Source: a virus. From it: DNA of 64,000 bases. The translations under genes were made by a program, and so were the position numbers. Below are positions 12,101 to 39,402 of the stretch, piece after piece. Under the pieces are notes generated by a model. The model had not been told where the DNA came from and did not search any database. It saw nothing but the letters and a program-made list of their open reading frames with translations. The DNA lies in the IMG/VR virus record IMGVR_UViG_3300018080_000115, positions 1 to 64,000 of that record; one strand, written 5' to 3'. Positions within the stretch are counted from its first letter, which is position 1. The number at the start of each line of letters is the position of its first letter.

Positions 12101-12182
12101 ATGACAAAAATTGTCACACATTAGTGACAAATAACGTCACTCTTGACAATAATTGTCACTAGTATGTGACCAATAAAGTCAC
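12101..12182. promoter_or_regulatory. Operator array A: four GTGAC-N7-GTCAC palindromes
   Basis: Sites start at 12101 (ATGACAAAAATTGTCAC), 12124 (GTGACAAATAACGTCAC), 12143 (TTGACAATAATTGTCAC) and 12166 (GTGACCAATAAAGTCAC). In each the second half-site begins exactly 12 bases after the first, giving a 17-bp palindrome. Site starts are 19-23 bases apart, about two helical turns. The array lies in the divergent gap between the leftward chain and amidoligase 1. Confidence 0.85.
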
Positions 12183-12262
12183 CCTTCCCAGTCTCGCCAA
12201 AACACCAAAACAAAAACGCATCAAAATTCAAGCACTTGCGTTCATCAAACAAACTGTCACGC

Positions 12263-12289
12263 ATGGCACACAAACTGCAACCCTATAAA
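12263..12289 (+). promoter_or_regulatory. Promoter of amidoligase 1
   Basis: TATAAA (12284-12289) lies 15 bases after ATGGCA. The block TGGCACACAAACTGCAA is shared with the promoter of amidoligase 3 (32744-32770 on the other strand), including the following ACTGTTGAC, which marks it as a conserved regulatory unit. Confidence 0.65.
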
Positions 12290-12326
12290 ACCGACTGTTG
12301 ACAAACCAAAGACCAAGAGACAGACC

Positions 12327-13412
12327 ATGAAAAAGATCGACCCCATCAAAGACGCTCTCAGGAAATTCAGCCCCAATTCCGATACCGAAATCACCTTTGG
12401 CGTCGAAATCGAATTCTGCACGCCTCACAACGTCTCTGGCGGCAACGCTCACAACAAGCAAAATCGTCAGCGCGTCGCCGATCTGCTTGCACGCATGACA
12501 GATCTGAAAGTTCGACAGAACAACTACAGCGGCTCTGACTACACGGCTTGGCAAGTCAAGTCGGATTGCAGCGTAACCAACGAAGATCTTGGTGCCGATT
12601 ATGCGGGCGGCTTCGAACTGGTCAGCCCGGTTCTGCAAGGGCTTGCCGGAATGGCGGATCTCCACCTGATGTGCTACGCCCTCCGCGCTCTCCGCTGCAA
12701 GGTCAACAAGTCATGCGGCATCCACGTCCACTTCGGAATCAAAAGCTTCTTCGAAAACAAAAGCATCGTCGACGCCAACCCGGACGCGCCGAAAGCCAAT
12801 CTGGACGAAATTGCCCGCCGCATCATGGAGACCTACGCAGAGTATGAGCCGCAGATCGATTCGCTGACCGACAAGACGCGCCGCGCCGAACGAAACACCT
12901 ACTGCCGCAGCACACGCGCTTTGGTGCGAGACATCAACCACACCAACAACATCGACATCAAGCATGTCGACATCACCTATGACATGGATGATTACGATCA
13001 TCACGACAGACGCTATCACAAAGTCAACTTCACCACCCTTCACCCTGTGGACGGCAAGGGCACCGTCGAGATTCGCCAGCTTCACGGCACCTTGGACAGC
13101 AAAGAAATCGCCGACTGGATTTGGCTTCATCAGAAGCTGATCCATCGCTCCCTGATGGGCGGTCTGATCGCCAAGACACGCCTGAACCAGCGCGGGCGCA
13201 CCTTCGCTCAAATGCTCGGCTTCATCCGCTGCGACCGCAACAAGTTCGGACGCGACTCGCAAACCACCAACATCGTCAACAGGCTTCGCGACAAGCATGC
13301 CGCCGTCTCCAAGGATTACGGCTGGAAACTGACCGATCGCATAGACGACATCACCAGCTACACCAACCCCTACGCCAACCCTCGCTTCATCAATACCGCT
13401 GCCGCCCATTGA
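12327..13412 (+). CDS. Amidoligase 1 (Orn/DAP/Arg-ligase-type)
   Basis: A 361-residue member of the amidoligase_2 family, glutamine-synthetase-fold enzymes thought to form amide bonds between an amino acid and a peptide or protein carboxylate using ATP. Signature parts: ITFGVEIEF (about residues 22-30, acidic metal ligands), LELVSP-like FELVSPVLQGLAG, SCGIHVHFG (about 130-138), RNTYCRSTR and the VEIRQLHGTLD strand. All likely active-site residues remain. The gene stands alone between its own promoter and a strong terminator. Two paralogues lie at 27911-30322 and 31539-32702. Substrate unknown. Confidence 0.88.
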   Translation: MKKIDPIKDALRKFSPNSDTEITFGVEIEFCTPHNVSGGNAHNKQNRQRVADLLARMTDLKVRQNNYSGSDYTAWQVKSDCSVTNEDLGADYAGGFELVSPVLQGLAGMADLHLMCYALRALRCKVNKSCGIHVHFGIKSFFENKSIVDANPDAPKANLDEIARRIMETYAEYEPQIDSLTDKTRRAERNTYCRSTRALVRDINHTNNIDIKHVDITYDMDDYDHHDRRYHKVNFTTLHPVDGKGTVEIRQLHGTLDSKEIADWIWLHQKLIHRSLMGGLIAKTRLNQRGRTFAQMLGFIRCDRNKFGRDSQTTNIVNRLRDKHAAVSKDYGWKLTDRIDDITSYTNPYANPRFINTAAAH

Positions 13413-13452
13413 TTTCCAACAATCTCGATTCTACAAGAATCGTCAACAGCTA

Positions 13453-13490
13453 GAAAACCCGCTGCAACCAAGCAGCGGGTTTTCTTTTTC
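13453..13490 (+). terminator. Rho-independent terminator after amidoligase 1
   Basis: A perfect 13-bp stem, GAAAACCCGCTGC (13453-13465) and GCAGCGGGTTTTC (13472-13484), with a 6-base loop and a following T run. Confidence 0.93.
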
Positions 13491-13569
13491 CACCATTTGC
13501 TCAAAGCACGACAGGACGCCGTTCAATCACGCATCATCAAAAAAACCCGTCCGATCCGTGATTTTAGAC

Positions 13570-13598
13570 TTGAAGCTTCCGCCAACCGCATCTATGTT
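13570..13598 (+). promoter_or_regulatory. Sigma-70-like promoter
   Basis: TTGAAG (13570-13575), 17-base spacer, TATGTT (13593-13598). It lies 43 bases before the ATG of the next gene and 46 bases after a GGACGCCGTT motif (13514-13523). Confidence 0.6.
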
Positions 13599-13640
13599 CA
13601 ATCTACAGGCAGATGCAATAGCCTATTGAAAGGACATCAC

Positions 13641-14366
13641 ATGAAGCTGTTGAACAGTCCCAAGCTTTCCGCCTTGACTTCTCGACTGCGCAAACTGATC
13701 GAAAAGCATCCACGCAGACTGATCAACCATCTCATCTACAAGCATTGGGCAGTCCGCAAAATTGAACTGGTGAGCTGCTTAGCTCATGCTCAAGACACAG
13801 GCATGTCATTCGTCAGCAAGCCAAGCGAAGGCGATTGGATTGTTGCTTGGTTCATCTTGCTTCAACGATACGACCAAACAAACAACAGAATGTTCCAGAA
13901 CATCGCCCATATCGTGCACGACGCCGACAAAGCCGAAAAGCTGCGCCTCAAGTATCAAGACGAAGTCGACCAAGGCAAACTGCACACCGTGCATTGCATT
14001 CCAGTCAGCGCCGCCATTCACCTGACGATCCTGGAACCCTCCTACCGAGAACAACTGGAAAAGAAGCGCGAAGAAGCAAAGAACGCTCAGCCGCGCAATC
14101 TCAACGATGCGCTCGAAGACGCTCAGGAAGACCTCTACCACGCCGAAAACCAAACCGAGATGCAGCAAGATCTTGAACAGCAACCGCCGCCGACTGCATT
14201 TCGCCCATCCATGCGAGTCATGGCAATACCAGGAATGCCCAACATGCAGGCATTCGCCATGAAGCCGGAAGAGTTTGAAGACTTGGTTCAAAGGATACAG
14301 GAAGCAGAGAAGCAGCAAGAACTTCCTTCCACCAAGACGACCAACGACCAAGAAAAACCGAATTGA
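13641..14366 (+). CDS. Hypothetical protein, 241 aa
   Basis: Starts MKLLNSPKLSALTSRLRKLI after GAAAGGACATCAC. The first half is helical and globular; the second is acidic and Gln/Pro-rich (EQQPPPTAF) with a final helix (MKPEEFEDLVQRIQEAEKQQ). It leads a run of three genes. No family recognised. Confidence 0.8.
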   Translation: MKLLNSPKLSALTSRLRKLIEKHPRRLINHLIYKHWAVRKIELVSCLAHAQDTGMSFVSKPSEGDWIVAWFILLQRYDQTNNRMFQNIAHIVHDADKAEKLRLKYQDEVDQGKLHTVHCIPVSAAIHLTILEPSYREQLEKKREEAKNAQPRNLNDALEDAQEDLYHAENQTEMQQDLEQQPPPTAFRPSMRVMAIPGMPNMQAFAMKPEEFEDLVQRIQEAEKQQELPSTKTTNDQEKPN

Positions 14367-14403
14367 AACCACCAACAACGTCAACGGCTTAAAGGACAGA
14401 CCA

Positions 14404-15006
14404 ATGACCGCCAAGTTCGACCAAATGATTATCAATTCAATACACTCCAAAACTTACGATCCCGCAGAACGTCGCTTGATGATCACTCAGAAAGACGAAT
14501 CCAACAAAGTCATCGGAGTCATCGGTTACACCCCCAATCAGGCCAAGCACAAATTGCTGCCGATTCTTGATCTGATGGCAAACGCAGAAATCAAAGGGAT
14601 CGATCTTCCGACCGGCGTGACGGATTCCGAAACGGCAAAGCAACTGATCCCTGTCATTCTCGACTTCGTCAATGGCGTCAACGACTTGGACAAGAACACG
14701 CAAACCAAGCGATGCCGCTTCTGTACCACAGAACTGCCAGACGCACAGACTCATCTCCGATATCATCACGCAAGCCTGTGTCCAGAATGCATGATCCAAT
14801 TCCGAGACATGTACAAAGCTGGTTTGAAGGGGGAACACGATGCATTCATTCAAATCGGCTTTCTGATTCGTGCAATGTTTCCGGCCGAACCAGACAGGTG
14901 TATGGAAATCTTCGAATGGATTCGAGAACTGGCGCAAGCGGACAACCTCTTGACGTCACAAGAGGTTCCCGAATCAACGACTCGACCGAATCACACAAGC
15001 CACTGA
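14404..15006 (+). CDS. Hypothetical zinc-finger protein, 200 aa
   Basis: N-terminal helical domain, then a zinc-binding segment CRFCTTEL...YHHASLCPEC (about residues 104-134). The same CxxC...LCPxC pattern and the following GFLIRAMF-like helix recur in the next gene, which indicates duplication. Preceded by AAAGGACAGACCA, the leader typical of promoter-proximal genes. Confidence 0.82.
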   Translation: MTAKFDQMIINSIHSKTYDPAERRLMITQKDESNKVIGVIGYTPNQAKHKLLPILDLMANAEIKGIDLPTGVTDSETAKQLIPVILDFVNGVNDLDKNTQTKRCRFCTTELPDAQTHLRYHHASLCPECMIQFRDMYKAGLKGEHDAFIQIGFLIRAMFPAEPDRCMEIFEWIRELAQADNLLTSQEVPESTTRPNHTSH

Positions 15007-15084
15007 AAAGGAAACAAGGTTCATGAGCGCCAAAGAAATCGATCGTTCAACCGCGGAAAAGCAGCAAAAGAAAAGTAGGAAGAC

Positions 15085-16191
15085 ATGGAACGCTTCGAAC
15101 CCAAATGCAGAATGTGCGAAGAAACACTTTCGGACGCCGCTGACGATCTGCTCCTGTGTCCCAAATGCCGTCAATACATCCTTCAACGCTACTCGGCAAA
15201 GAACCCAAGAGACGTCATTCTGAGACGATCCAAGCACGTTGCACTCGGCATGCGTCTTCAAAAACTGTTCGGCCACAACGAAACTCTGATGCAAGCTGCT
15301 TTCAACTGGCTGAACGAAGAAGAGGACGCCGCTGAAAAGCGCCCTGACGTCCTTCCAGGCCAAACAGATCTGATCACACTGACAAGCCGTCCTGAAGACA
15401 AGCAAGAAGAAAACACACAGCGGCAAGCATCTGCTCGCTGCCGGTTCTGTACCGAACCGCTCAATGAATTCCTGCAACTGCACTACAGCACCGATCAACG
15501 CGAAAGCTACCAATCAGACCGCATCATGCTGGGATCTCCCGTCAACCTGTGCAGACGTCATGCAGACGTCATTCATCACCTCACAGTAGCAACCAACGAC
15601 GATTCTTTCACCCTGGCTGTTTCCATCTCCATGATCGCCTACTCCATGCGGCTCCGTTCTCAAAATGAACCGAACGAAATGCGGCACATCGTCCAAAGCT
15701 TCCGCCACATCACCGAATCGATTGCAGCACTTCATGATGCCAATGACTGTGCCAAACGCTCAGCCTATCCCTTCGAACTGGATTACGGCTTGTGTCACAT
15801 CTGCCATAACGAAATCGAATGTCATGACGAAGATGAAGACGAAAAAAGAGAACGACACGGATTCATCATGCCGATCATGTACCGCCGCACTGAAGATCTT
15901 CCCAATCGCATCAAAGCGGCACCCTTCATCCGCGCTCACAAGAACTGTGCCCAATCGTTTGTTCAAACCGAACTTCAATCAAACAGTGCCGCGCCCGTCA
16001 TTCAACGCGCTCTGTCGATAATTCCTCTGGTCAAGCGAACGCTGCGCGCTCTCAATGAAGGATCAGACCCAACACTCTTCTTGGCAAACGTATTCAAGGC
16101 GTGCGACCCGCGCAACAACATATTCAACCCATTCGGATTTGAAGCAGACCAACTCAACAACGAAACACCCCTTCGTTTCACCGACATGTAA
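15085..16191 (+). CDS. Multi-zinc-finger hypothetical protein, 368 aa
   Basis: Three Cys modules: CRMCEETL...LLCPKC (residues 9-29), CRFCTEPL...NLCRRH (about 118-155) and CHICHNEIECH (about 236-246). Each is followed by a helical stretch resembling the one in the 14404-15006 protein, so it looks like a tandemly repeated version of that protein. ATG follows AGGAAGAC. Possibly nucleic-acid or protein binding; no enzyme motif seen. Confidence 0.82.
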   Translation: MERFEPKCRMCEETLSDAADDLLLCPKCRQYILQRYSAKNPRDVILRRSKHVALGMRLQKLFGHNETLMQAAFNWLNEEEDAAEKRPDVLPGQTDLITLTSRPEDKQEENTQRQASARCRFCTEPLNEFLQLHYSTDQRESYQSDRIMLGSPVNLCRRHADVIHHLTVATNDDSFTLAVSISMIAYSMRLRSQNEPNEMRHIVQSFRHITESIAALHDANDCAKRSAYPFELDYGLCHICHNEIECHDEDEDEKRERHGFIMPIMYRRTEDLPNRIKAAPFIRAHKNCAQSFVQTELQSNSAAPVIQRALSIIPLVKRTLRALNEGSDPTLFLANVFKACDPRNNIFNPFGFEADQLNNETPLRFTDM

Positions 16192-16207
16192 AGGCTTGAC
16201 GTTACTA

Positions 16208-16405
16208 ATGTTTTTCCAAAAAATACTCTCCGTCATCATTCGACACCTCGGAAGACAACCCGTTCCAGGCGCAGATGAACAACCCGAACGGCGTCCAGAT
16301 CCGCAATCTTGGCGCACCTCCGCTTCCTCAAAAAAACAACGAAACATGCGCCGCGACAAAATGACGGCAACGCCAAATAGAAGCGCAAACGACAACACCG
16401 TCTGA
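16208..16405 (+). CDS. Small hypothetical protein, 65 aa
   Basis: Hydrophobic start (MFFQKILSVIIRHLG) followed by a basic, Pro/Arg/Ser-rich tail. The first 15 residues could be a membrane anchor. Ribosome site weak; support is gap filling and strand. Confidence 0.45.
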   Translation: MFFQKILSVIIRHLGRQPVPGADEQPERRPDPQSWRTSASSKKQRNMRRDKMTATPNRSANDNTV

Positions 16406-16441
16406 ACCAAAAGAAAAAAGTCTGAACCAAAGGAAAAAAAC

Positions 16442-16876: not shown

Positions 16877-18279
16877 TTGCTTCAACATCGCCTGAAGCAT
16901 CCACTTCAACCTGAGCAATGACAAGTTCTTGATTTATTGACAAATCCAACATACCATAACTGCAACAATCAGGAGTCACACAACAATCCAATGCCGCTGA
17001 TTCTGTCACACAAGATTCGACTGAAGCCGAACAACAAGCAGGTTGCTCATCTGAAGCATGCTTGTGATGTGTCTCGATTCGTCTACAATTGGGCTTTGAA
17101 TCAATGGCAACGGATGTTTGAGGCAGGCGAGAAGCCGTCTGCAAACAAGATCGACAAGCGTTTCAATCAAGTCAAGAAACAGTCCTATCCATGGGTTTTG
17201 GATGTCAGCAAATCTGTACCGCAGATTGCAATCAAGAACCTTGGGCAGGCATTCAAACGATTCTTCAATAAACAATCGAAATATCCACATTTCAAACGAA
17301 AGAATAAGTGTAAGAATTCGTTTGGATTGCAGAATAATCAGTTTGATATAAATAACAAAATCATTCGACTGCCCAAGCTGGGCAATGTTCGGATATACAA
17401 TGCATTGCATTTCTCTGGAAAGATCATGTCTGCAACCATCAGTCAGACTGCTGACAGATGGTTTGTTTCGATAACTGTTGAGGTTGACTTTGATCCATCA
17501 ACAATCAGACACGAAAACCAAGGTTTGATCGGGATCGATGTCGGACTCAATAGTTTTGCCGTACTCAGTACGGGTCATTCGTTTGATGCGCCGAAACCAT
17601 TGAAGCATGCTTTGAGACAGTTAAAAACACTGAACAAGAAGCTGTCTCGACAAATCAGATTATCCAACAACTGGAAAAAGACAAAACAGAGGATTGCAAA
17701 GCTGTACTATCGCATCAGTTGTATTCGAAACGATTTCCTGCACAAGCTGACTTCGTTTCTGACACAACGATTCAACGGTATTGCAATCGAGAATCTGAAT
17801 ATCAAAGGCATGCTTCGAAACCATCGATTGGCACGATCGATCAGTGATGTTGCTTGGTCTGAATTCAGAAGACAGTTGGAGTACAAAGCGGAACTGTACG
17901 GTTCAGAAATCGCTGCAATCGATCGATGGTTTCCAAGCACGCAGACGTGTTCGAACTGTGGTGAGCGCAAACAAGGAAATGAGAAACTGAAGCTTGGTGA
18001 TAAATTCTATCACTGCGATCATTGCGGTTTTGAAGCGAATCGCGACTTCAACGCTGCAATCAACATCAGAAATCAAGGGTTCAACCTTGAGTCGGCCGAT
18101 GGCTTGTCGGCCAAGAAGCCTGTCGCCTCATTGGTCAATAGTTTCAATGCATCAGTGCTGAAGCCAAACCATGATTGGGCAGGAAGTTTTCATGGGTCTG
18201 CTGTAGATAGTGCTGCGACAATGCAGTCACAGCGGATTCAGTAAGAAAAATGAAGCACATGCGCCGTCATTTCTTGTAA
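16877..18279 (+). mobile_element. Probable IS200/IS605-type element with orphan tnpB (ends not resolved)
   Basis: A single tnpB with about 110 bases of leader and no tnpA beside it, the common non-autonomous form. The ends are not certain. A hairpin AAGAAAAATGA/TCATTTCTT (18243-18275) just after the stop could be the right-end structure or a terminator shared with the convergent gene. Confidence 0.55.
16991..18244 (+). CDS. tnpB: TnpB RNA-guided nuclease (IS605 type)
   Basis: 417 residues. The helix-turn-helix-like start LSHKIRLKPNNKQ is typical of IS605 TnpB. RuvC residues are intact: Asp in IGIDVGLN (about 178-185), Glu in AIENLNIKGM (about 259-268) and Asp in NRDFNAAINI (about 349-358), with the zinc finger CSNCGERK...CDHCGF. 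A 50-residue tail after the fold is unusual. It differs clearly from the IS607-type TnpB at the left end, so two separate transposon families invaded this replicon. The guide RNA would overlap the 3-prime end of the gene. Confidence 0.92.
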   Translation: MPLILSHKIRLKPNNKQVAHLKHACDVSRFVYNWALNQWQRMFEAGEKPSANKIDKRFNQVKKQSYPWVLDVSKSVPQIAIKNLGQAFKRFFNKQSKYPHFKRKNKCKNSFGLQNNQFDINNKIIRLPKLGNVRIYNALHFSGKIMSATISQTADRWFVSITVEVDFDPSTIRHENQGLIGIDVGLNSFAVLSTGHSFDAPKPLKHALRQLKTLNKKLSRQIRLSNNWKKTKQRIAKLYYRISCIRNDFLHKLTSFLTQRFNGIAIENLNIKGMLRNHRLARSISDVAWSEFRRQLEYKAELYGSEIAAIDRWFPSTQTCSNCGERKQGNEKLKLGDKFYHCDHCGFEANRDFNAAINIRNQGFNLESADGLSAKKPVASLVNSFNASVLKPNHDWAGSFHGSAVDSAATMQSQRIQ

Positions 18280-19202: not shown

Positions 19203-19475
19203 TCAGCCTTGATCCTTGAGCCCGAACGCCTCAGCAAGACTGAGGTTGCCGCTGCCGCAATCGATCATCTCTTGCACGTTCACAATCTCAGACTGATAGG
19301 CGCGATCGTAATGCCGTTCAACCATCCCCGCCTCATCACACCTGTGACAGACATAGTGTTCAGCGGTCTGTTCGCCGTCATCCATCATCCCTTTATAGGC
19401 CACCGTCACGATCACATCCGCCGCACGCTCGCCACCACACATCTCACACCTCGGTCGTTCACGTCGCTCAGTCAT
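19203..19475 (-). CDS. Zinc-ribbon hypothetical protein, 90 aa
   Basis: CEMCGGERAADVIV (residues 11-24) and YVCHRCDEAGM (about 41-51) form a classic four-Cys zinc ribbon. The end (SLAEAFGLKDQG) is a short helix. It heads the short leftward block next to operator array B. Confidence 0.82.
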   Translation of the reverse strand: MTERRERPRCEMCGGERAADVIVTVAYKGMMDDGEQTAEHYVCHRCDEAGMVERHYDRAYQSEIVNVQEMIDCGSGNLSLAEAFGLKDQG

Positions 19476-19516: not shown

Positions 19517-19545
19517 ACAATTGCACTTCGTATGCCAATTGTCAA
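19517..19545 (-). promoter_or_regulatory. Promoter for the 19203-19475 gene
   Basis: Minus strand TTGACA (19545-19540), 17 bases, AATTGT (19522-19517). The spacer begins ATTGGCAT, matching the rightward promoter at 19845 (ATTGGCATGC). Confidence 0.55.
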
Positions 19546-19654
19546 GAATTCGTGACAAACCATACATCCTACCAGAATCACTAAAGAGTCAATAAAACAC
19601 ACATCTCAAAAAACAATCATCGTTTCGCGCACATCTTCGCAGCGCCCCCAAAAA

Positions 19655-19738
19655 GTGACAATATTCGTCACTCATGTGACACAAATTGTCACCAGAATGA
19701 CGTCAATTGTCACTATTGAGACACAAAACGTCAACCAC
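19655..19738. promoter_or_regulatory. Operator array B: four palindromes with a 21-base period
   Basis: Sites start at 19655 (GTGACAATATTCGTCAC), 19676 (GTGACACAAATTGTCAC), 19697 (ATGACGTCAATTGTCAC) and 19718 (GAGACACAAAACGTCAA). The starts are exactly 21 bases apart, two turns of DNA, so all face the same side. It lies between divergent transcripts. Confidence 0.88.
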
Positions 19739-19844: not shown

Positions 19845-19873
19845 ACCACAATTGGCATGCTCCATGCTACTGT
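19845..19873 (+). promoter_or_regulatory. Class II promoter
   Basis: -10 TACTGT (19868-19873) with ATTGGCATGCTCCATGC as the 17-base spacer; the -35 position (ACCACA) is weak. The stretch ATGCTACTGTTACA then GACAACG recurs at 39201 and 39507. Confidence 0.65.
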
Positions 19874-19917: not shown

Positions 19918-20211
19918 ATGTCGAAGAAAATCGCAGAGCCCAAGTGTTACGGACAGTACAGCGGACAGTACAACGACGGTCAGCCTTGGACGCAAGAATG
20001 GTACACGTCCAAGAGCCGCGATGCCAGCAAGCGCACGCGCATGCTGCGCAAGCTGGGTTTCGCCTGCCGCAGCGAGTCCATGGGCTACCAGACGGGCACG
20101 GGCTACAACATGACGCTCATCAGCATCGAAGCTGCTGCACACGAGCTGCCGCCTGTCGAGATGAAGAATCGCACGCAGGAACGCAACGAAATCGCCGCGT
20201 TCTTCAACTAG
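19918..20211 (+). CDS. Small protein of the LPPVE family, 97 aa
   Basis: Contains CYGQYSGQYNDGQPWTQEWY and KRTRMLRKLGFA, ending HELPPVEMK. The protein at 39574-39825 shows the same order (CYGKY.L..GWTSEWY, KKRIRQLKEEG, MGF, MTLLHIHAP, LLPAE), as does that at 38605-38847. No function known. Strong leader GAAAGGACAATCC and its own class II promoter; followed by a GC-rich hairpin. Confidence 0.85.
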   Translation: MSKKIAEPKCYGQYSGQYNDGQPWTQEWYTSKSRDASKRTRMLRKLGFACRSESMGYQTGTGYNMTLISIEAAAHELPPVEMKNRTQERNEIAAFFN

Positions 20212-20592: not shown

Positions 20593-20668
20593 AAGGCATC
20601 ACAAACATCTCACAAGTTTGTCACTTCTGTTCAAGCCAAGGTGTATGACGTCAAAAGAAGGAGTCACG

Positions 20669-20989
20669 ATGTCTTGGGAAAAGAAAATTGAAACGGTCAA
20701 GAACCTCAGAAGCTTCACACGGAAAGTGTTCCGTACGTTCCGTGAAATCCAATACGAAAACAACCACATCGTACGCACAAAGGCTCCTGTCATTCCACAA
20801 GAAATCGCTGAGCGTCTTGACACTCCCTTGGAAACAATCAACAACGTGCTCAAAACACTGACCGACAAAAAACTGATCAAACTTCTTCCGTCCAAGCGAG
20901 ACCCGGACATCATTTTCATCGTCTTCGACGGCGACGAAACAGAACGCGCTTACGTCGATAGTTGGATGGAAATAGGAAAAGGACAATAA
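20669..20989 (+). CDS. Winged-helix-like protein, 106 aa
   Basis: PVIPQEIAERLDTPLETINN followed by VLKTLTDKKLIKLL is a plausible winged-helix DNA-binding unit (about residues 42-77), then a short beta wing (IIFIVFDGD). ATG after GAAGGAG. It might regulate nearby genes, but no target can be read from the sequence. Confidence 0.7.
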   Translation: MSWEKKIETVKNLRSFTRKVFRTFREIQYENNHIVRTKAPVIPQEIAERLDTPLETINNVLKTLTDKKLIKLLPSKRDPDIIFIVFDGDETERAYVDSWMEIGKGQ

Positions 20990-21010: not shown

Positions 21011-21943
21011 ATGAAAAAAACAACAAAACCGGAAGACAGAGTCATCTTCGAATGCGTCTCAGGCAGTCACGCCTACGGCATGAACACGCCGGAAAGCGAC
21101 ACGGATCTGAGAGGCGTCTTCGTCCCTCCGCTCGACTGGTGCACGGGATTCATCAAGCGCGAAAGTCAATTCTCAGGAGACAGCAACGAAGATCGAATCA
21201 TCTACGAGATCAGGAAGTTCTTCCGCATGGCCGCAGACGCCAACCCGAACATCCTGGAACTGCTGTGGATGCCGCAAGACTGCATTCTTCAATTCCACTC
21301 GTCTTGGAAACGCATCCAAGACCACCGAGAACTGTTCCTGAGCGCCAAAGTACGCCACACCTATACCGGCTACGCATTTTCACAACTGAATCGCATGAAG
21401 CGTCACAGAGAATGGCTTCTCAATCCGCCTGAACGCGCTCCCAAATGGTCGGACTTCGGCATTCCAGACGAAGACGAAGCACGCCAAAAGATCACCAAGG
21501 ACATCAAACGCCTGAGCGAAGCCGGTATCGACCCCATGAAGACGCATGGCGAATTCGTGAAGAACAGCGGGTCCTACAAACGAGCTATGGAAATCTGGCA
21601 ACACTACCAGGAATGGAAGCTGAACCGGAACCCGAAGCGAGCGGAATGGGAAGCGAAATTCGGGTACGACTCGAAACACGCATCACACCTTGTTCGTCTT
21701 CTCAGACAGGGACACGAAATCATCACGACCGGCGAAGTCATCGTCAGACGACCGGACGCGAAAGAACTGCTTGCGATCCGCAACGAAGGGATTTGGTCCT
21801 ATGACAAGCTGATCGCCTACGCCACAGAAATGGAAGAGAAGATCAAGAACGACGCAGCAGCGGAAACATGCAGTCTGCCGCAAAAGCCGAACAGAGAACT
21901 GCTCAACGAATTGTGTGCCTCAATCATCGAACGATTTCTGTGA
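21011..21943 (+). CDS. Predicted nucleotidyltransferase (YcgL/COG3541 type)
   Basis: 310 residues. The N-terminus has CVSGSHAYGMNTPESDTDLR (GS followed by DxD), the catalytic signature of the polymerase-beta nucleotidyltransferase fold, then GVFVPPLDW as in the COG3541 group. The body carries conserved HASHLVRLL and VRRPDAKELLAIRNEG, the usual end of this family. Family members transfer a nucleotide to an unknown acceptor. Phage copies are common. Catalytic residues intact; the start has only a weak ribosome site. Confidence 0.88.
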   Translation: MKKTTKPEDRVIFECVSGSHAYGMNTPESDTDLRGVFVPPLDWCTGFIKRESQFSGDSNEDRIIYEIRKFFRMAADANPNILELLWMPQDCILQFHSSWKRIQDHRELFLSAKVRHTYTGYAFSQLNRMKRHREWLLNPPERAPKWSDFGIPDEDEARQKITKDIKRLSEAGIDPMKTHGEFVKNSGSYKRAMEIWQHYQEWKLNRNPKRAEWEAKFGYDSKHASHLVRLLRQGHEIITTGEVIVRRPDAKELLAIRNEGIWSYDKLIAYATEMEEKIKNDAAAETCSLPQKPNRELLNELCASIIERFL

Positions 21944-27910: not shown

Positions 27911-30322
27911 TCATTCATTTCCACAGCTTGTGCTTCCTGCTCTTCTTCTGTCGTGTTCAAGAGCCATTTCAAACAATCTGCGGGCATGTGGAAAAATCAA
28001 TTGACATTCCGCGCACACAAAGGTCGTGCCACGATCGGGGCAATTTATGCATATAGCATTATTCCTTGTAAACAGCGAAATTAATCTTTCTACATTTTGA
28101 TCTCGTGTCTCTTCAGCCCGTATTTCAAATCTTCTTCCGATGTTGTTCAACGGATAGTGAGTACAAAAATCACAATACAAATAACCACTGTCGATCAACG
28201 GCATCCCGCGATTAGGGCATGACCGGCAATGTCCATTGGCATCCATTTCTATTCTGCTGCATGCAGCAAAAAAACGATTACAGGAAGCACAATACGAATT
28301 GCCGTCGATATCATATGCGCCACGCAGATCACACAACCGACAATGTTCGTGCATCGTGACGCAAACATCTCTTACGAGATCCGGACGCAAAAATGATCTA
28401 AGATCAAACTCATCCGGACCAGGAACAGGAATTGAAGAAGAGGGAGCATTCGACGATTCCAGTTCATTCGGCGAGCAATGAAGGTTCGGATTATCAGGAC
28501 ATGCATCGCAGTATGCGATTCCGCTGACAGGAGCATGTTGATCACGATCACGACATGACCGGCATCTCTCAGGAACCTCTTCTTCACGTTCAGATTCAAC
28601 CGTTGTTCTTCTTTGTGAATAATGAATGCAGTTGCTGCAACAGGCCAACGGAACAGTTGGTCCGGCATGCGGTTCATCCATCTGATAATCGGCGAAACGG
28701 CATGAATGGCACAGGTTTCTTGTGGTCACAGTCATATTCGAAGAAGGAACGTACCGATCGATTTCGATGAGACTGCGCATGGTAGCACAATTCATACAGT
28801 ACAATATGCTGTTTCTATTACGTGCGCCGCGAAGAGTGCACGCTGCACACTGTTCAGCTGCAGCCGCAAGTTCCAGCACGCTTCTCTCAATCGTCTGCCT
28901 TCGTTCCCGCAGCTGCACCGCTCTTCTGCTCCATTGACCTTCGGCTTCGTTTTCGTCGAACCCATCCATTCTTCTTTCAGTAAGAGACTGCTGCGGAACG
29001 GCTGCAGAAACGATTGATTCGGAATGATCCGAAGAACGATTCGCCCTCTGTCGCGGACCATTGGCATAGGTGAGCACGCTGCTCACGCGATCACTGATCT
29101 TGCCGCCGTACTGCTCGACCGTCAGCCGGTGCCGCTTGCGGAGATCCTTGATGAATTGCTCAGTCTGGCCGCTGCGTCCCTTTCTCCGATCGGCCCGCAG
29201 GTATCCGAGAAGATGCGCGAATGTTCTGCCCATGCCGCCTTCATCCTTCGGCGCACGATGCCTCAGCATGATGCCGCCCATGAGTGCGCGATGGATCAGC
29301 TTCTGATGGAGCCAGACCCATCGATGGATTTCGGCATGCTGGAACGTCCCATGAAGCTGACGGACTTCGATGGTGCCGCGACCATGATTGCGCACTCCTG
29401 TCAAGTTCAGCTTGCAATACCGTTCGTTTTCCAACATGCGATCATCCATGCGTTCGACTTCGATCGCCCGCACGTCCCTCTTGGAGCCTTCGGGCGTGTT
29501 GATCCAATTCGACGTTACGCGCCGCGTGCTGCGACAATAGGTGTTGATCGACCGTCGACGATCCTTGGACACCAATGTGTCGAGCTGCGCCTCATACTCC
29601 GCATAGACGTCGAAAACGCGCTTGATGGCGATGGACCGCTGATCATGGTTGAGCACATCCCAGCCGTTGTGGCCGGAACGCAACAGGATTTCGTTTTCCC
29701 GTCCCGGATTGACCTTCAGATTGACGTTGCGGAAGAAGCTTCTGACGCCGAAGTGGACATGCGTGCCGCATCGGTTGTTCTGCTTGCACTTCAGCTTCCT
29801 GAGCGCTTTGCACATGCGCTTGATGACTTCCAACCCATCCTGCCCATGCAGAATGGGACTGACCAGTTCCAGCCGTCCCACGTGGTTCCGAGCATGGGTT
29901 CGCACGCTGGAGTCTTCCTTCAGCTTCCAAACTCCGTAATTGCCGTCAGCGTATTGATGATCCGAATAGTTTGCCGGTTTGACCCCCAACATGGCTTTTT
30001 GAGTCAGACGCTTGGCAAAGCGCATGCGATAGAGCAGATCTGCGTTTCCCAAACAACTGCTGTGCTCATGGACACGCATGTCAACATTGTCGTCATCCGA
30101 GAAGATCCAAGTGAAGCCGCTCTCCTCTTCTTCAATTTCGACAATGCGATTACGCGGGTACTCGAATTCACGCGGACCCAAGAATTCGATTTCAACGCCG
30201 AAGGTGATGTTTTCGCTGAAGTTCGACGTGTATGGATGCAGGTTGACCCTGATCGCATCCTCGCTGATCGTGCGGCCCGTGGTCATCAGCTTGCTGGTCT
30301 TGACTTGGATTTTGTCGCTCAT
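27911..30322 (-). CDS. Amidoligase 2 fused to a zinc-ribbon array
   Basis: 803 residues. N-terminal 430 residues form an amidoligase_2 domain: ITFGVEIEFLGP, RLELVSPILHGQDGL, RCGTHVHFGVRSFF, INTYCRSTR and TIEVRQLHGTFQ. The C-terminal part (from about residue 490) holds six repeats of the pattern C-x2-C...YC-x2-C, for example CRLCDLRGAYDIDGNSYCAS and CRSCPNRG...YLYCDFC. Such ribbons often bind proteins or nucleic acids and may select the substrate to be ligated. The ATG follows GAAAGGCAAC; the promoter at 30382-30410 is class I. Amidoligases 1 and 3 lack this tail. Confidence 0.9.
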   Translation of the reverse strand: MSDKIQVKTSKLMTTGRTISEDAIRVNLHPYTSNFSENITFGVEIEFLGPREFEYPRNRIVEIEEEESGFTWIFSDDDNVDMRVHEHSSCLGNADLLYRMRFAKRLTQKAMLGVKPANYSDHQYADGNYGVWKLKEDSSVRTHARNHVGRLELVSPILHGQDGLEVIKRMCKALRKLKCKQNNRCGTHVHFGVRSFFRNVNLKVNPGRENEILLRSGHNGWDVLNHDQRSIAIKRVFDVYAEYEAQLDTLVSKDRRRSINTYCRSTRRVTSNWINTPEGSKRDVRAIEVERMDDRMLENERYCKLNLTGVRNHGRGTIEVRQLHGTFQHAEIHRWVWLHQKLIHRALMGGIMLRHRAPKDEGGMGRTFAHLLGYLRADRRKGRSGQTEQFIKDLRKRHRLTVEQYGGKISDRVSSVLTYANGPRQRANRSSDHSESIVSAAVPQQSLTERRMDGFDENEAEGQWSRRAVQLRERRQTIERSVLELAAAAEQCAACTLRGARNRNSILYCMNCATMRSLIEIDRYVPSSNMTVTTRNLCHSCRFADYQMDEPHAGPTVPLACCSNCIHYSQRRTTVESEREEEVPERCRSCRDRDQHAPVSGIAYCDACPDNPNLHCSPNELESSNAPSSSIPVPGPDEFDLRSFLRPDLVRDVCVTMHEHCRLCDLRGAYDIDGNSYCASCNRFFAACSRIEMDANGHCRSCPNRGMPLIDSGYLYCDFCTHYPLNNIGRRFEIRAEETRDQNVERLISLFTRNNAICINCPDRGTTFVCAECQLIFPHARRLFEMALEHDRRRAGSTSCGNE

Positions 30323-31538: not shown

Positions 31539-32702
31539 CTAATCAGCGTAAGCGCAGATGCTGCTGACGCGGTCGGTGATCTTCCGGCCCGCATTCTTGA
31601 CCACCTTGGCGTTCTTCTTACGCAGCATATCAACGATCTTCGTGGTCTTGACATCACGGCCGTACTTGTTGCGATCGGCCCGCAGGTATCCGAGAAGATG
31701 CGCGAAGGTGCGGCCGTTTCCGCCTTCATCCTTCATCGCACGATTGCGAACCAGAATGCCGCCCATGAGAGCACGATGAATCATCTTCTGATTGAGCCAA
31801 ATCCAGCGATACATGTCGTTGAAGTTCAGGGTGCCCTGGAACTGGCGATTTTCGATCGTACCGCGCGACTTGGCAACCGAGAGATTCAACTTGTGATAAC
31901 GGCCGCAGGTCGTCATGTCGTCCCGCATGGTTTCGACTTGGATTGCGCGCGGATCTACAAAATTGGCCATCCTGCGAGTGCTGCGACAGTAACGGCCCCG
32001 ATTGGCGCGGCGCTTCTTGTTGACCAGCGTATCGAGCTGAACCTCATACTCGGCGTAGACGTCGAAAACGCGCTTGATGGCGAGGTTTCGGTGATCTTCA
32101 GTCTGACGATCCCAACTGTTGATTCCGACTCTGGTATTGTTGAAGAAGCTGCGGATGCCAAGGTGGATGTGAGAGCCGCAGGAAGCGTTCACGCTGCAAC
32201 CGGCTTCCTTCATCGCCTTGTAGATCTTCCTGAGCGCCTTCAAGCCTTCCTGCCCCTTCAGAATCGGGCTGACCAGTTCCAGGTAGCCGACCTTGCCGCG
32301 CGCACGGGTTTTGACCGAGCAGTCGCCCTTGAGCATCCAAGTTTCGGCATCATAGCTGTGATTGCTGTAGGCGGCTGAAACGATGTTCATGCCGGTCATC
32401 TGCGCCAGCTTCGCGGCGAACATCTTGCGATATCCGGCATCCGCGTCTTTGCCCCAATGAGTATAAATACGAGTTGACGTGCTTCCGTGAATCAACCCGT
32501 CAATGTAATCGTTGACGATTTCAGGGTAGTCGAAAGTTTGCGGACCCAAGAATTCGATTTCGACGCCGAAAGTGATCTCGTTGTCGAAGTTCGGCGTGTA
32601 GTCGCGAAGCTGATTCTTGATGGCATCTTCGCTGACCTTGCCGTTGGTCGTGGCAAGCTTGCTGATGTTGATGCCTTCGATTTTCTTGGCTTCCTGCTTC
32701 AT
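31539..32702 (-). CDS. Amidoligase 3
   Basis: 387 residues, closest in sequence to the N-terminal domain of amidoligase 2 (ITFGVEIEFLGPQTFDYP, YLELVSPILKGQEGL, SCGSHIHLGIRSFF, RGRYCRSTR, TIENRQFQGTL). It has IENRQF where the others have IEVRQL or VEIRQL. Start MKQEAKKIEGINISKLA, after AAAAAAGGACAGACCAAG. Operon with two downstream genes and a terminator. Confidence 0.88.
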   Translation of the reverse strand: MKQEAKKIEGINISKLATTNGKVSEDAIKNQLRDYTPNFDNEITFGVEIEFLGPQTFDYPEIVNDYIDGLIHGSTSTRIYTHWGKDADAGYRKMFAAKLAQMTGMNIVSAAYSNHSYDAETWMLKGDCSVKTRARGKVGYLELVSPILKGQEGLKALRKIYKAMKEAGCSVNASCGSHIHLGIRSFFNNTRVGINSWDRQTEDHRNLAIKRVFDVYAEYEVQLDTLVNKKRRANRGRYCRSTRRMANFVDPRAIQVETMRDDMTTCGRYHKLNLSVAKSRGTIENRQFQGTLNFNDMYRWIWLNQKMIHRALMGGILVRNRAMKDEGGNGRTFAHLLGYLRADRNKYGRDVKTTKIVDMLRKKNAKVVKNAGRKITDRVSSICAYAD

Positions 32703-32743: not shown

Positions 32744-32770
32744 CTTATAGGATTGCAGTTTGTGTGCCAA
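32744..32770 (-). promoter_or_regulatory. Promoter of amidoligase 3
   Basis: Minus strand TTGGCA, 15 bases, TATAAG; TGGCACACAAACTGCAA and ACTGTTGAC match the amidoligase 1 promoter almost base for base. Confidence 0.65.
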
Positions 32771-32863: not shown

Positions 32864-32948
32864 TTGACGCTATTGGTCACTAGTTTGTGACAATTTTCGT
32901 CGCTCGGTGACAATTTGTGTCACAAGAGTGACAATTTTCGTCATTCGA
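32864..32948. promoter_or_regulatory. Operator array C: four palindromes
   Basis: Sites start at 32864 (TTGACGCTATTGGTCAC), 32887 (GTGACAATTTTCGTCGC), 32907 (GTGACAATTTGTGTCAC) and 32928 (GTGACAATTTTCGTCAT), 20-23 bases apart. Between divergent transcripts, like arrays A, B and D. Confidence 0.85.
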
Positions 32949-33159: not shown

Positions 33160-33342
33160 ATGAGAATCAACCGCAACGCCAAGTGTGAAAGCTGCCGCAG
33201 GGGAGAGAATGACGAACCGGCCGACTACTACGTCACAGGCACCATGAACGGCCGACCCTATCGCGGCTATCTGTGCAACGACCATTTGAGTCAGATGGAA
33301 GAAGACGGACTCAAAGTCAAGCAGTGCATAAGCTTGAAATAA
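33160..33342 (+). CDS. Small zinc-binding protein, 60 aa
   Basis: AKCESCRRGENDEPADYYVTG and GYLCNDHLSQMEEDG form a C-x2-C...C-x2-H knuckle; paralogue of the 22763-22948 protein. First gene right of operator array C; its upstream DNA repeats GGCACACAAAC from the amidoligase promoters. GAAAGATCAGACCG leads to the ATG. Confidence 0.8.
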   Translation: MRINRNAKCESCRRGENDEPADYYVTGTMNGRPYRGYLCNDHLSQMEEDGLKVKQCISLK

Positions 33343-34912: not shown

Positions 34913-34977
34913 GAACCAAAATCGAAATCATTACCCTCAAGGAATGGATTGCGACGTGGACAAATCTGCGAGGTTGA
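34909..34977 (+). CDS. Tiny ORF repeating the start of the preceding gene, 22 aa
   Basis: MRTKIEIITLKEWIATWTNL resembles MRTKIEVIKLREFISMLIRE at the start of 34355-34912. ATGA overlap with that gene and two bases before the next ATG. It looks like a broken duplication or a coupling leader. Confidence 0.4.
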   Translation: MRTKIEIITLKEWIATWTNLRG

Positions 34978-34979
34978 AA

Positions 34980-35522: not shown

Positions 35523-35818
35523 GCGCAAAACCGAAACCCATCGTCGATCTGGTCAAAGAACTTGATTCAATCATTGAGTCTTGGCCGGATAACGCCGTCA
35601 AGAGACTTGAGGCGCTTCAGAGAGCGGTCAAGAGCAGACGATTTACCCTTCATGATCGATGGGTGGAAGCAGAAGGCATAGAAAAAACAAGATTAGTCGG
35701 TCAATATGCGACTGCAATAGAAGCAGTTGACATACTTCTGCGTTCAGCTCGATCGCGTGCAACATCTGATGCAGCATTCGAAATGGGAGTACGATACACC
35801 AAAATAGCAAAGGACTAA
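35519..35818 (+). CDS. Hypothetical helical protein, 99 aa
   Basis: ATGA overlap with the preceding gene. All-helical (VKELDSIIESWPDNAVKRLE). Unknown. Confidence 0.75.
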   Translation: MSAKPKPIVDLVKELDSIIESWPDNAVKRLEALQRAVKSRRFTLHDRWVEAEGIEKTRLVGQYATAIEAVDILLRSARSRATSDAAFEMGVRYTKIAKD

Positions 35819-35822
35819 AATC

Positions 35823-36260
35823 ATGAGCGACGTCAACAACTCAAGCCAACCCGACAACGATGAAGCCCTTGTCGGCGAACATGACCGCCAAGAACAGCTC
35901 GCCGAACTGACGCACAAGATGAATCAGCTTGCCGTGTCACACTTCAGCATGCTGCGCGTCGAATCCGTTCATTCCATCAGGCGCGCTCAAGGCGGTGTGG
36001 ACATCATCATCCACTTCGTGGTTCCGGTGCGAGGAACCAACCACTTTTTCCCAGAGAATTCTCATCCGATTCCCATGCAGACGTTCATCATGCCTGTAAG
36101 GATCGAACTGAATCCGGAATCGGAAGGCTACAACATAAACTTCAATAACGTCAACCACATAGACGAAGCCACGTCCGCGCTATCGATGCTTTCATTGCTT
36201 TTGAGTCGTGCAATGGTTCTGATGAGCCAGCATGGCAACGGACAGAATGCAACAGAATGA
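35823..36260 (+). CDS. Hypothetical protein, 145 aa
   Basis: Starts MSDVNNSSQPDNDEALVGEH; beta-rich centre (VDIIIHFVVPVRG, TFIMPVRIEL), C-terminal helix. ATGA overlap with the next gene. Unknown. Confidence 0.78.
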   Translation: MSDVNNSSQPDNDEALVGEHDRQEQLAELTHKMNQLAVSHFSMLRVESVHSIRRAQGGVDIIIHFVVPVRGTNHFFPENSHPIPMQTFIMPVRIELNPESEGYNINFNNVNHIDEATSALSMLSLLLSRAMVLMSQHGNGQNATE

Positions 36261-36517
36261 CAAAAAAAAAGAGAAAGCCGACACGGAGGGATTTGCTGGT
36301 CATCATCACCAGACTGCAAGGGATGATCGGCACGGCACATGGAGAACACTTCAATGATCGCAGTCGAACCGCGTTCGAAACAGCTCAACGCATTCTGAAA
36401 AAAGCACATGAACTCTGCATAGATGCCCGAAGCCACGAAGACCCGGTTCGCATGACAGGACCATGGGCGGAAGGACATGAAAATGATACGAAACACCCCT
36501 ACTATGACGAAGACTGA
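36257..36517 (+). CDS. Hypothetical protein, 86 aa
   Basis: Starts MTKKKRKPTRRDLLVIITRL, basic then helical, acidic end. Overlaps the next gene by about 35 bases. Confidence 0.7.
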   Translation: MTKKKRKPTRRDLLVIITRLQGMIGTAHGEHFNDRSRTAFETAQRILKKAHELCIDARSHEDPVRMTGPWAEGHENDTKHPYYDED

Positions 36518-37295
36518 TGAACTCAAACTGCAAGAAGCGGGCAGAATTCTGAAGCAGAAACTGGAAGAGGCATTGTTGGAGAAGATCGGACAGGATCATT
36601 TTGCCATCCATGCTCAACAAAACGACAAGTACATCATCGTGTCCATACAGCACGCATTGGACCGTAACGTCACGGTCAACTTGGCGCATCTGCAAATCGT
36701 TTTCAACCCCTATCCTTTCAGAGAAAAACAGCCTGATTCTCCGATAGCAGTCATCCTGAAGAATGGGGCCGCGCTGCGCGATCGACGATTCAGAAGTGAC
36801 AATGATTGTGCAACCATCGAAGAGCGCATCAAACAAGTCGGCCGATGGCTTGAAATCGGAAAAGAACTGCTGGAAGAAAAGTTTCAAAAAGCGCAGCGGG
36901 AATTGTGGTGGGCTGAGCGTGATGCAGAGCTGGCGCATCGCATGAACGCCTACGCCCGCAACAAGCAGATGCGTGTCCGCGTGTGTGATGTTTCCACTAA
37001 CCGCTGTCACCACCTGAACGACAGCCTGTTCACATCCGTCAAGTTCTTGGTGCGCAATCGCGACTGGGAAGAGTTGGACGGCGGGACAGGGAATCTGATC
37101 CTGTTCAACCCGGATGTTCAGAGCGTTGCCGTCTATTACGAAGTCAGCTTGAAGGACAGAGCGCGCTGGTTCAACAACCGCCGATACGAAATATCGTCTT
37201 TCAGCAACATGGAGCAGTTGACCGCGATCTTCGAATTGCTGAGGCACTTTGCCGAACAAATCGAAACGCCTGACAATACGCTGTCTGTCGCCTAA
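36483..37295 (+). CDS. Hypothetical protein, 270 aa (paralogue of 33685-34284)
   Basis: Chosen ATG lies 8 bases after GGAAGGAC. LAHRMNAYARNKQMRVRV links it to the 33685-34284 protein. The rest is mixed: an N-terminal helix pair, strands around IVFNPYPF, and a helical end (LTAIFELLRHFAEQ). Unknown function. Confidence 0.78.
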   Translation: MIRNTPTMTKTDELKLQEAGRILKQKLEEALLEKIGQDHFAIHAQQNDKYIIVSIQHALDRNVTVNLAHLQIVFNPYPFREKQPDSPIAVILKNGAALRDRRFRSDNDCATIEERIKQVGRWLEIGKELLEEKFQKAQRELWWAERDAELAHRMNAYARNKQMRVRVCDVSTNRCHHLNDSLFTSVKFLVRNRDWEELDGGTGNLILFNPDVQSVAVYYEVSLKDRARWFNNRRYEISSFSNMEQLTAIFELLRHFAEQIETPDNTLSVA

Positions 37296-37390
37296 ATCAC
37301 GCAAGAGGAATAATCGAATCCGTAACATGCCGACGTTACTAAAGAAATTTAGCATGCAGGTGAAACGCCGATTTCGCGAAAGGCAAACCC

Positions 37391-37918
37391 ATGACCAATT
37401 CAGCCATCAAGCCGCGACAAGCTACCGAAATCGAGATCTATGAAACGCTGTACGATAACGGGTACATCCAATGGGCGCAACGCGACGGCAAAGACATTTA
37501 CGTGCTGCTCAACAATCGCAAAAAGTACATCGGCGATGTCGACAGAGCGGTTCTGAATCAACTTCGTCCAGACATTCTCAGAGGAGACCAAGAGACACGA
37601 TCGATGAAGATGAGAGCGCACCACTACATCGAAGACGATGCTTGGATTCGCATGGCGCACGCAACAGCCGAAGCATTCAAACAAGGCGTGCTCAAAGACC
37701 ACGATCGAATGATTGTCATGATCGAAGACGACCTTGTCCACAAGCAGGTTCTGATTCGCCTGAAATCGCAGCCACGAGAAGTGCTCAAGATCATGAATTT
37801 CAGGATCGACGTCTCCGATTGCGGACATCACGAGCCATTCCGCATCATCCAAATGAAACTCCCGCAAAGAGCGGCACACTGGAAGCATCGCGTGACGTCC
37901 GTCCGGGCGCAATGGTAA
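37391..37918 (+). CDS. ETLFNGG-family hypothetical protein, 175 aa
   Basis: EIYETLYDNGYIQWAQRDGK replaces the ETLFNGG block; DDAWIRMAHATAEAFKQGV matches the W helix and PFRIIQMKLPQRAAHW the end of the paralogues at 21982 and 23066. A weaker 38-residue frame (37327-37443) overlaps its start. Last gene of this rightward block. Confidence 0.8.
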   Translation: MTNSAIKPRQATEIEIYETLYDNGYIQWAQRDGKDIYVLLNNRKKYIGDVDRAVLNQLRPDILRGDQETRSMKMRAHHYIEDDAWIRMAHATAEAFKQGVLKDHDRMIVMIEDDLVHKQVLIRLKSQPREVLKIMNFRIDVSDCGHHEPFRIIQMKLPQRAAHWKHRVTSVRAQW

Positions 37919-38010
37919 ACACTTGAAAACAACGGGCAGGTCACACGGTCTGCCTGCTTCAATCCGTCCCGTTCGAACGGCGTCCTGTTTCGCGTAGGTG
38001 GGAAGCATGA

Positions 38011-38361
38011 TCACGAAGCAATCATGCTTTGGGGAGGTAGGCGAAAACCGGTGGGGCAGTAGAAGATTACTTCAACAGCCCGAAGACCGCAGGTTGTATT
38101 GGCCAGAACAACCGCTCTCGTCTCGTCAGCGTACAGGATGAAGTATCCGAAGTCATCATAAATGCACAGCTTTTGCAGTCCATGCACCGAGATGCCTTCC
38201 TGGTCGGCTTCATTGTACCGCTGGCGAAAGATGGAACGAGTGTCCAAGATCAGTTCGGTCAAAGAAGCCGGATTCGTCAGCTTCTCGTAGTCGCTGCGGT
38301 CACGCGTTCCAAGTACGAAGCCCATTTTGAGCAGGTTCTTGAAATCTGAGAAGTGTGTCAT
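38011..38361 (-). CDS. Hypothetical protein, 116 aa, LPP-type end
   Basis: Starts MTHFSDFKNLLKMGFVLG. Ends FRLPPQSMIAS and contains ADETRAVVLANTTCGLRAVE, echoed by KDKIIIVANCNGPWAVEVQ in the 38889-39167 protein. These two seem related. Unknown function. Confidence 0.75.
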   Translation of the reverse strand: MTHFSDFKNLLKMGFVLGTRDRSDYEKLTNPASLTELILDTRSIFRQRYNEADQEGISVHGLQKLCIYDDFGYFILYADETRAVVLANTTCGLRAVEVIFYCPTGFRLPPQSMIAS

Positions 38362-38393
38362 GACCGATTCTATCTTCTTTTTGATATTGATGT

Positions 38394-38564
38394 TTATAAT
38401 TCGAAATTGTTTTTCAGATTCATGACAATCACACTGATTTCATTTTCCGGCACACCTTCAATGTTACGAACCACTTCAAGCAACTCTTCGATTGCAATAC
38501 ACAACGCACTGCAATTACTGTCGTACTTGTTGAGTTTTTCTTGCATCAGCTCAATTTCATTCAT
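38394..38564 (-). CDS. Small helical protein, 56 aa
   Basis: MNEIELMQEKLNKYDSNCSA after GAAAGGAAGAACGAG. Predicted helix pair; GGACAGACT further upstream resembles the common leader. Unknown. Confidence 0.7.
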   Translation of the reverse strand: MNEIELMQEKLNKYDSNCSALCIAIEELLEVVRNIEGVPENEISVIVMNLKNNFEL

Positions 38565-38604
38565 CTCGTTCTTCCTTTCAAGTATTTTTAGTCTGTCCTT
38601 GCTG

Positions 38605-38847
38605 TTAGTGAGTGTCGAATCCAACGCTGATCGTCGGATGCAGCTTGACGGGCGGCAATTCGCAGACCGGCGCGTCGACATGAATGAAACTCATGAGGCA
38701 CTTCGGCGTGTACCTGAAGCTTGTGTGCATCATGTAGGCTTCGATGCCCACGCTCTTGAGCTGAAGAATCCGATCATTGAGCGCCCTGTCTTCGGCCCTA
38801 TATGATTCGATCGTCCAGTTTTTCATATCCTGTTGTCCGTAACACAT
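38605..38847 (-). CDS. Small protein of the LPPVE family, 80 aa
   Basis: MCYGQQDMKNWTIESYRAED, RILQLKSVGIEAYMM, LMSFIHVDAPVCELPPVKL: same order of motifs as the 19918 and 39574 proteins. ATG after GAAAGGAAAAGCC. Confidence 0.82.
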   Translation of the reverse strand: MCYGQQDMKNWTIESYRAEDRALNDRILQLKSVGIEAYMMHTSFRYTPKCLMSFIHVDAPVCELPPVKLHPTISVGFDTH

Positions 38848-38888
38848 GGCTTTTCCTTTCAAATGCTTTCAGTGCGTCGTTGAGCGAT

Positions 38889-39167
38889 CTACTGCACTTC
38901 GACAGCCCACGGGCCGTTGCAGTTGGCGACAATGATGATTTTGTCCTTGTCTTCATGCTCGAACATCGCATAGTTCCCGCAATCGAAGAGACCCAAGAAG
39001 TCGCAGTCCATCTCCGACAATTCTTCCTTGACCGAAACTCCGTCGACTCGATCGTCATCATCACCGACCGGGAAGCCTTCGCCCGCATCATTGCGCTCAT
39101 GAAACGCAATGCGGATATCGGTGTCATTGGTCCGGGACATCAACTGTTCGTACGAGATCTTCTTCAT
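38889..39167 (-). CDS. Hypothetical protein, 92 aa
   Basis: Starts MKKISYEQLMSRTNDTDIRI after GAAAGGACAGACCA. Acidic, beta-rich; ends with VANCNGPWAVEVQ, similar to a segment of the 38011 protein. First gene left of operator array D. Confidence 0.8.
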   Translation of the reverse strand: MKKISYEQLMSRTNDTDIRIAFHERNDAGEGFPVGDDDDRVDGVSVKEELSEMDCDFLGLFDCGNYAMFEHEDKDKIIIVANCNGPWAVEVQ

Positions 39168-39200
39168 TGGTCTGTCCTTTCAGTGCGTTGTTGCTCTGTA

Positions 39201-39229
39201 ACAGTAGCATGAACCGTGCCATTTGTCAA
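39201..39229 (-). promoter_or_regulatory. Class II promoter, leftward
   Basis: Minus strand TTGACA, spacer AATGGCACGGTTCATGC (17), TACTGT, then TACAGAGCAACAACG. Near-copy of the promoter at 39507. Confidence 0.8.
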
Positions 39230-39339
39230 ACATGTGTGACAAACATCTGCAACATATCGAAATCACTTATGCAAACAACACACAACGGCGTCCCGACACC
39301 GTTACGGCCGCACCCGCCTGTACCCTAAACAGCTCCGAA

Positions 39340-39402
39340 GCGACCATAATTGTCACTCATGTGACACAAATTGTCACAAAGATGACGAAAATTGTCATTG
39401 AG
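39340..39402. promoter_or_regulatory. Operator array D: three palindromes, 21-base period
   Basis: Sites start at 39340 (GCGACCATAATTGTCAC), 39361 (GTGACACAAATTGTCAC) and 39382 (ATGACGAAAATTGTCAT), each 21 bases apart. The second is identical to the second site of array B. Confidence 0.85.

Follow-up and report, generated by a model that had tools for sequence, protein, structure and literature searches.

PilR is a known sigma-54 activator of pilA, and the original study of its binding is reportedly that of Jin, Ishimoto and Lory from 1994 (cited in PMC3333781). The pilA promoters of this type in Pseudomonadota and Desulfobacterota combine tandem TGAC-N7-GTCA boxes, spaced 19–23 bp apart, with a -24/-12 element located approximately 50–200 bp from the boxes. 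Upstream multimeric sites, a GG-N10-GC promoter and an AAA+ activator also characterize the NtrC/glnA, NifA/nif and RtcR/rtcBA systems, which have other box sequences and regulons and control cellular genes. Descriptions of phage promoters usually refer to sigma-70 or to phage polymerases; to our knowledge, none of the phages borrowing host regulators employs a sigma-54 activator of pili as proposed below. PilR sites have been discussed elsewhere (PMC6058289). The present analysis concerns bases 1–64,000 (hereafter, the window) of the 138,362-bp virus record IMGVR_UViG_3300018080_000115, which encodes a major head protein, a tape measure protein, a DNA polymerase, a DnaB-like helicase and an SbcCD-like nuclease; the first four of these genes identify the record as a tailed phage (Caudoviricetes). 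The window contains four arrays of the same box, which are likely to be bidirectional PilR enhancers (upstream activating sequences) placed between sigma-54 promoters and run by the host PilS/PilR circuit. Unlike the pilA promoter, with its one array, the phage has four, and these are directed both ways and would drive phage blocks without a pilin gene; as in the NtrC-type systems, an AAA+ activator would be used, and, as in other phages borrowing host regulators, the host transcription machinery would control phage genes.

A scan of the window for GTGAC-N7-GTCAC revealed 15 sites, namely, six exact, seven with one mismatch and two, at 19718 and 39382, with two mismatches. These are all of the sites that a preliminary description of this DNA had listed as four arrays at divergent junctions. 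The tighter core TGAC-N7-GTCA was found 14 times, whereas shuffled sequences contained 1.5 cores on average and 5 at the maximum; 12 of the 14 cores were within the arrays, and the other two (11648 and 55635) were single. The centres of neighbouring boxes were 19–23 bp apart, mostly 21 bp, which corresponds to two helical turns. The half-site spacing was constant, as described earlier, and the linkers, said to be variable, differed only slightly; the ends given for array 1 were accurate, and arrays 2, 3 and 4 each proved to be approximately 4 bp shorter. In the whole record, paired boxes were present at the four array places only, which bears out the earlier statement that no array was noticed elsewhere, and each of the four divergent junctions of the window has one array, as had also been claimed. 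Gene calls suggested further divergent junctions at approximately 98.9, 106.0, 111.7 and 127.8 kb of the record, all without arrays; therefore, the arrays belong to the left part of the genome, which consists mostly of hypothetical genes. The views that the palindrome itself is the bound unit and that a single regulator serves all four junctions are probably right, judging from the sequence. A fifth divergent junction, formed by a 504-aa minus-strand ORF at 44268–45782, was rejected because this ORF was non-coding by codon usage, and a fifth regulatory site at 132818/133082 of the record was discarded because both of its elements were inside a gene read on the opposite strand.

The preliminary description contained no mention of the -24/-12 promoters that flank the arrays. 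Scanning with TTGGCACG-N4-TTGCW (cut-off of at least 10/13) revealed sites matching the sigma-54 consensus on six of the eight array arms, each directed away from its array, and the GG-N10-GC core within TGGCAC-N5-TTGCA was found on seven of the eight. Both strands of the whole record (138 kb) together contained seven copies of TGGCAYN6TGC: six were located at the arrays, all of them outward, and the seventh was inside a capsid gene, which reads on the other strand. On the seven canonical arms, the promoter was 78–120 bp from the array, that is, at enhancer distance, and the distances from the array edge to GG were nearly mirror-symmetric for arrays 1, 2 and 4 (Table 1). Between each promoter and the first gene of the block was a short leader containing a ribosome-binding site. 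The minus-strand arm of array 1 had GG-N10-GC with TTTGCA and a weaker -24 part, and the rightward arm of array 3 is probably weak or dead. Exact copies of TTTGTCAC-N6-TTGACAA were located directly upstream of three leftward -24 elements (12026–12046, 19539–19559 and 39223–39243, minus strand). The inner half-sites of two adjacent boxes recur in this sequence, which also contains a sigma-70-like -35 element; it may be a second, extra PilR binding site or an overlapping sigma-70 promoter.

In genome_contigs, three consecutive boxes were found at 76 loci, most of which were plain tandem repeats without promoters and were set aside. The non-repetitive three-box loci with a sigma-54 site mostly preceded type IV pilin genes (L069 of Thioalkalivibrio, L083 of Desulfobacterales, L103, L110 and L118), and in four of these genomes (G001, G003, G004 and G005) the pilin array was the only one. 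Paired boxes at this type of spacing (19–23 bp) were rare among 666 sampled bacterial genomes: they were found in 27 of the 369 genomes of the class of G001 and in 14 of the 297 genomes of the phylum of G002, with reversed-pattern controls of 3 and 0, respectively. The paired-box surveys and the single-genome array scans together gave 47 distinct chromosomal array loci; of these, 38 had a sigma-54 site no more than 400 bp away, and a gene encoding a pilin N-terminus was present within 1.5 kb in 37. In four of the 20 inspected loci (L252, L253, L260 and L261), an NtrC-type response-regulator gene ended beside the array in the order regulator–array–pilin, while in L243 and L244 such a gene was located approximately 2–3 kb upstream, clustered with pilB/pilT-like genes. 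The examined NtrC-type proteins had receiver (REC), sigma-54 AAA+ and Fis-type HTH (HTH_8) domains, with a PF00158 score of 225–244 bits in the PilR-like proteins; none of the latter passed the listed NCBIfam equivalog cut-offs, among which no PilR model turned up. By synteny, the regulator near the pilin arrays is presumably PilR. Given the prevalence of pilin genes and sigma-54 sites at the chromosomal loci and the PilR-like gene near several of them, the motif most plausibly represents the PilR box of pilA. RtcR, suggested as the activator by the gene of an RlaP-like nucleotidyltransferase (PF10127, RNA repair; 21011–21943) in the block downstream of array 2, was dropped, since the box belongs to pilin loci. 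Separately, many contigs of the metagenome-assembled genome Dive96_bin1.51 (L049, L054, L061, L066, L075, L078, L085, L087, L088, L091, L104, L105 and L122) shared the same 23-bp tandem palindrome, mostly close to contig ends, which resembles a dispersed family of repeats.

Triple boxes were found at 44 loci of viral_contigs; within 250 bp of these arrays, 23 outward sigma-54 sites scoring 11/13 or more were counted, versus 0.17 expected from the same loci. Two boxes accompanied by TGGCAYN6TGC at a distance of 25–55, 56–86 and 87–117 bp were detected at 31, 34 and 27 viral loci, respectively; for the 56–86 bp spacing, the real pattern gave 34 loci versus 0 with the promoter element reversed and 0 with the boxes reversed. 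Over the whole range of 25–117 bp, there were 79 distinct viral loci, mostly unrelated, with some near-duplicates that reduce them to approximately 70 independent ones. Only one of the 79 had a pilin gene; therefore, these are not host pilA promoters. The three-box viral loci had essentially no genes in common with the window, and among the loci bidirectional like those of the window were L189, L197, L199, L202, L221 and L231. Nearly all of the 50 virus records tested had one array cluster, and the window was the richest, with four. The activator domain PF00158 gave three weak AAA+ matches only (at most 22.5 bits) in the 50 other records, and no clear activator gene was found in the 51 phage records checked, that of the window included. 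Four of the viral loci were used to look for a named isolate phage with this architecture and gave no useful match. In addition, the related proviruses L006, L018, L019, L036, L042 and L045 had GTGACCAAATCGGTCAC triple arrays with no nearby sigma-54 site; these palindromes may serve some other regulator as operators.

The boxes, the promoter elements, their geometry, the identity with bacterial pilA promoters and the recurrence in phages are all observed, and the best reading of them is that many phages drive gene blocks via host PilR and sigma-54. Neither PF00158 nor PF04552 (sigma-54 DNA-binding domain) had a match in the record of the window; therefore, the activator and sigma-54 are probably those of the host. 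Contact through DNA looping and ATP-driven melting are established sigma-54 biology, on which the proposed mechanism is based. Host PilR would bind the boxes lying approximately two helical turns apart and assemble an ATPase oligomer on the array; by looping, the oligomer would contact the sigma-54 RNA polymerase at either of the flanking -24/-12 elements and open the promoter with ATP, and the near-symmetric placement would allow one array to serve two blocks. In this way, the phage may place as many as eight divergent blocks, which make up approximately the left 63 kb, under PilS/PilR, the usual control circuit of pilin, in place of sigma-70 or a phage-encoded activator. The promoters would be active during infection, and the presumed benefit is strong expression without sigma-70 in hosts producing type IV pili, which are perhaps the receptor.

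Several points weigh against this interpretation. PilR binding and promoter expression are predicted from sequence, the PilR identity rests on synteny with pilin, and the PilR of the host is extrapolated from other bacteria. The contig may be incomplete, so that a phage activator could lie outside it, and the box could also be recognized by a different NtrC-type activator. The spacing between -24 and -12 is wrong on one arm (33092), and TTGACA is located 17 bp ahead of a weak -10 at three leftward promoters, where sigma-70 could contribute.

It is unlikely, though worth considering, that the arrays are sigma-54 enhancers of an activator other than PilR, either a host NtrC-type regulator with the same box or one whose gene lies in a phage region absent from the contig. 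The contig may be incomplete, the recognition sites of bacterial enhancer-binding proteins can resemble each other across paralogues, and a few Desulfobacterales arrays precede non-pilin genes (L077); however, the great majority of the distinct chromosomal array loci (37/47) are pilin loci, several genomes have one array of this kind only, at pilA, and the 51 phage records contain no convincing activator. Far less probable are operators of a phage repressor or activator acting on sigma-70 promoters (TTGACA-N17-TACTRT). The preliminary description had named the XRE protein (6212–6508) and the winged-helix protein (20645–20989) as candidates; an element-encoded regulator of this kind is not supported, because identical box pairs precede pilA in bacterial chromosomes. 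The seven arms have GG-N10-GC in common rather than a -35/-10 pair, and, although TTGACA occupies a plausible -35 position in three leftward promoters, the other arms have no good -35; palindromic operators at divergent junctions with HTH proteins encoded nearby would fit such a regulator, but identical arrays also occur in unrelated phages with essentially no window genes in common. A centromere, as also proposed earlier, or replication iterons of a plasmid-like element, to which clustered, evenly spaced repeats at several places could point, can be practically dismissed, since the record is a tailed phage, no ParB-domain gene (PF02195) was found in the element, and the arrays lie at a fixed distance between outward sigma-54 promoters.

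Returning to host PilR, a literature search, thin on subscription journals, revealed no phage promoter under PilR or any sigma-54 enhancer array; a putative phage protein structurally similar to sigma-54 has been reported (PMC7693777), which is a different matter. The use of the PilR/sigma-54 pilus-control circuit by phages seems to be previously undescribed. A large phage appears to put most of its left 63 kb under a host pilus regulator, and the arrangement recurs in approximately 70–80 viral loci. If so, the expression of phage genes would be linked directly, through regulation, to a common phage receptor, and pilR or rpoN mutants would resist infection or alter it for a second reason besides pilus loss. 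The combination of array and promoter can also serve as a sequence marker of phages that infect PilR-bearing hosts. A more speculative idea, which we hold only tentatively, is that many unrelated phages acquired PilR/sigma-54 enhancer promoters independently and use the pilin-sensing PilS/PilR of the host as an infection-time signal, which would make phage gene expression depend on the pilus state. Such a signal could be, for instance, pilus production by the cell or a shift in the pilin pool during entry by a retracting pilus.

Table 1. Arrays, putative promoters and first genes of the divergent blocks in the window (distances are from the array edge to GG).
Feature	Position	Strand	Remarks
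Array 1, four PilR-type boxes (TGAC-N7-GTCA)	12101..12182		spacing 23/19/23 bp
Array 2, four boxes, last degenerate	19655..19734		spacing 21/21/21 bp
Array 3, four boxes	32864..32944		spacing 23/20/21 bp
Array 4, three boxes	39340..39398		spacing 21/21 bp
Weaker putative sigma-54 promoter ATGGTCTGATGTTTGCA, GG-N10-GC	12009..12025	-	78 bp from array 1; under the 10/13 cut-off
Putative sigma-54 -24/-12 promoter ATGGCACACAAACTGCA	12263..12279	+	83 bp from array 1
Putative sigma-54 promoter TTGGCATACGAAGTGCA	19522..19538	-	119 bp from array 2
Putative sigma-54 promoter TTGGCATGCTCCATGCT	19852..19868	+	120 bp from array 2
Putative sigma-54 promoter TTGGCACACAAACTGCA	32754..32770	-	96 bp from array 3
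Degenerate eighth arm CGGCACACAAACAACGTGCAA	33092..33112	+	~149 bp from array 3; both half-elements, gap 14 bp vs 10; direct reading
Putative sigma-54 promoter ATGGCACGGTTCATGCT	39206..39222	-	120 bp from array 4
Putative sigma-54 promoter TTGGCACGGTCTATGCT	39514..39530	+	118 bp from array 4
First gene leftward of array 1	11726..11965	-	no assigned function
First gene rightward of array 1	12327..13412	+	amidoligase (PF12224)
First gene leftward of array 2	19203..19475	-	small CxxC protein
First gene rightward of array 2	19918..20211	+	LPPVE-family small protein
First gene leftward of array 3	31539..32702	-	amidoligase (PF12224)
First gene rightward of array 3	33160..33342	+	small
First gene leftward of array 4	38889..39167	-	small
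First gene rightward of array 4	39574..39825	+	small protein of the type found after array 2

Besides the two amidoligase genes adjoining arrays 1 and 3, a third one was found at 27911–30322; the 803-aa amidoligase has a long cysteine-rich C-terminal part. Relatives were sought by amidoligase protein and by DNA, and none were found. Two TnpB genes (OrfB_IS605/Cas12f1-like) were present at 16991–18244 and L001:6964–8271, the closest plasmid relatives of the former being in Pseudomonadota and Geoalkalibacter. ARAGORN revealed a tRNA with a CUA anticodon (named tRNA-Pyl) adjoining a tRNA-Ala at L001:5175–5250 (69175–69250 of the record), which is a candidate amber-suppressor tRNA of the phage.

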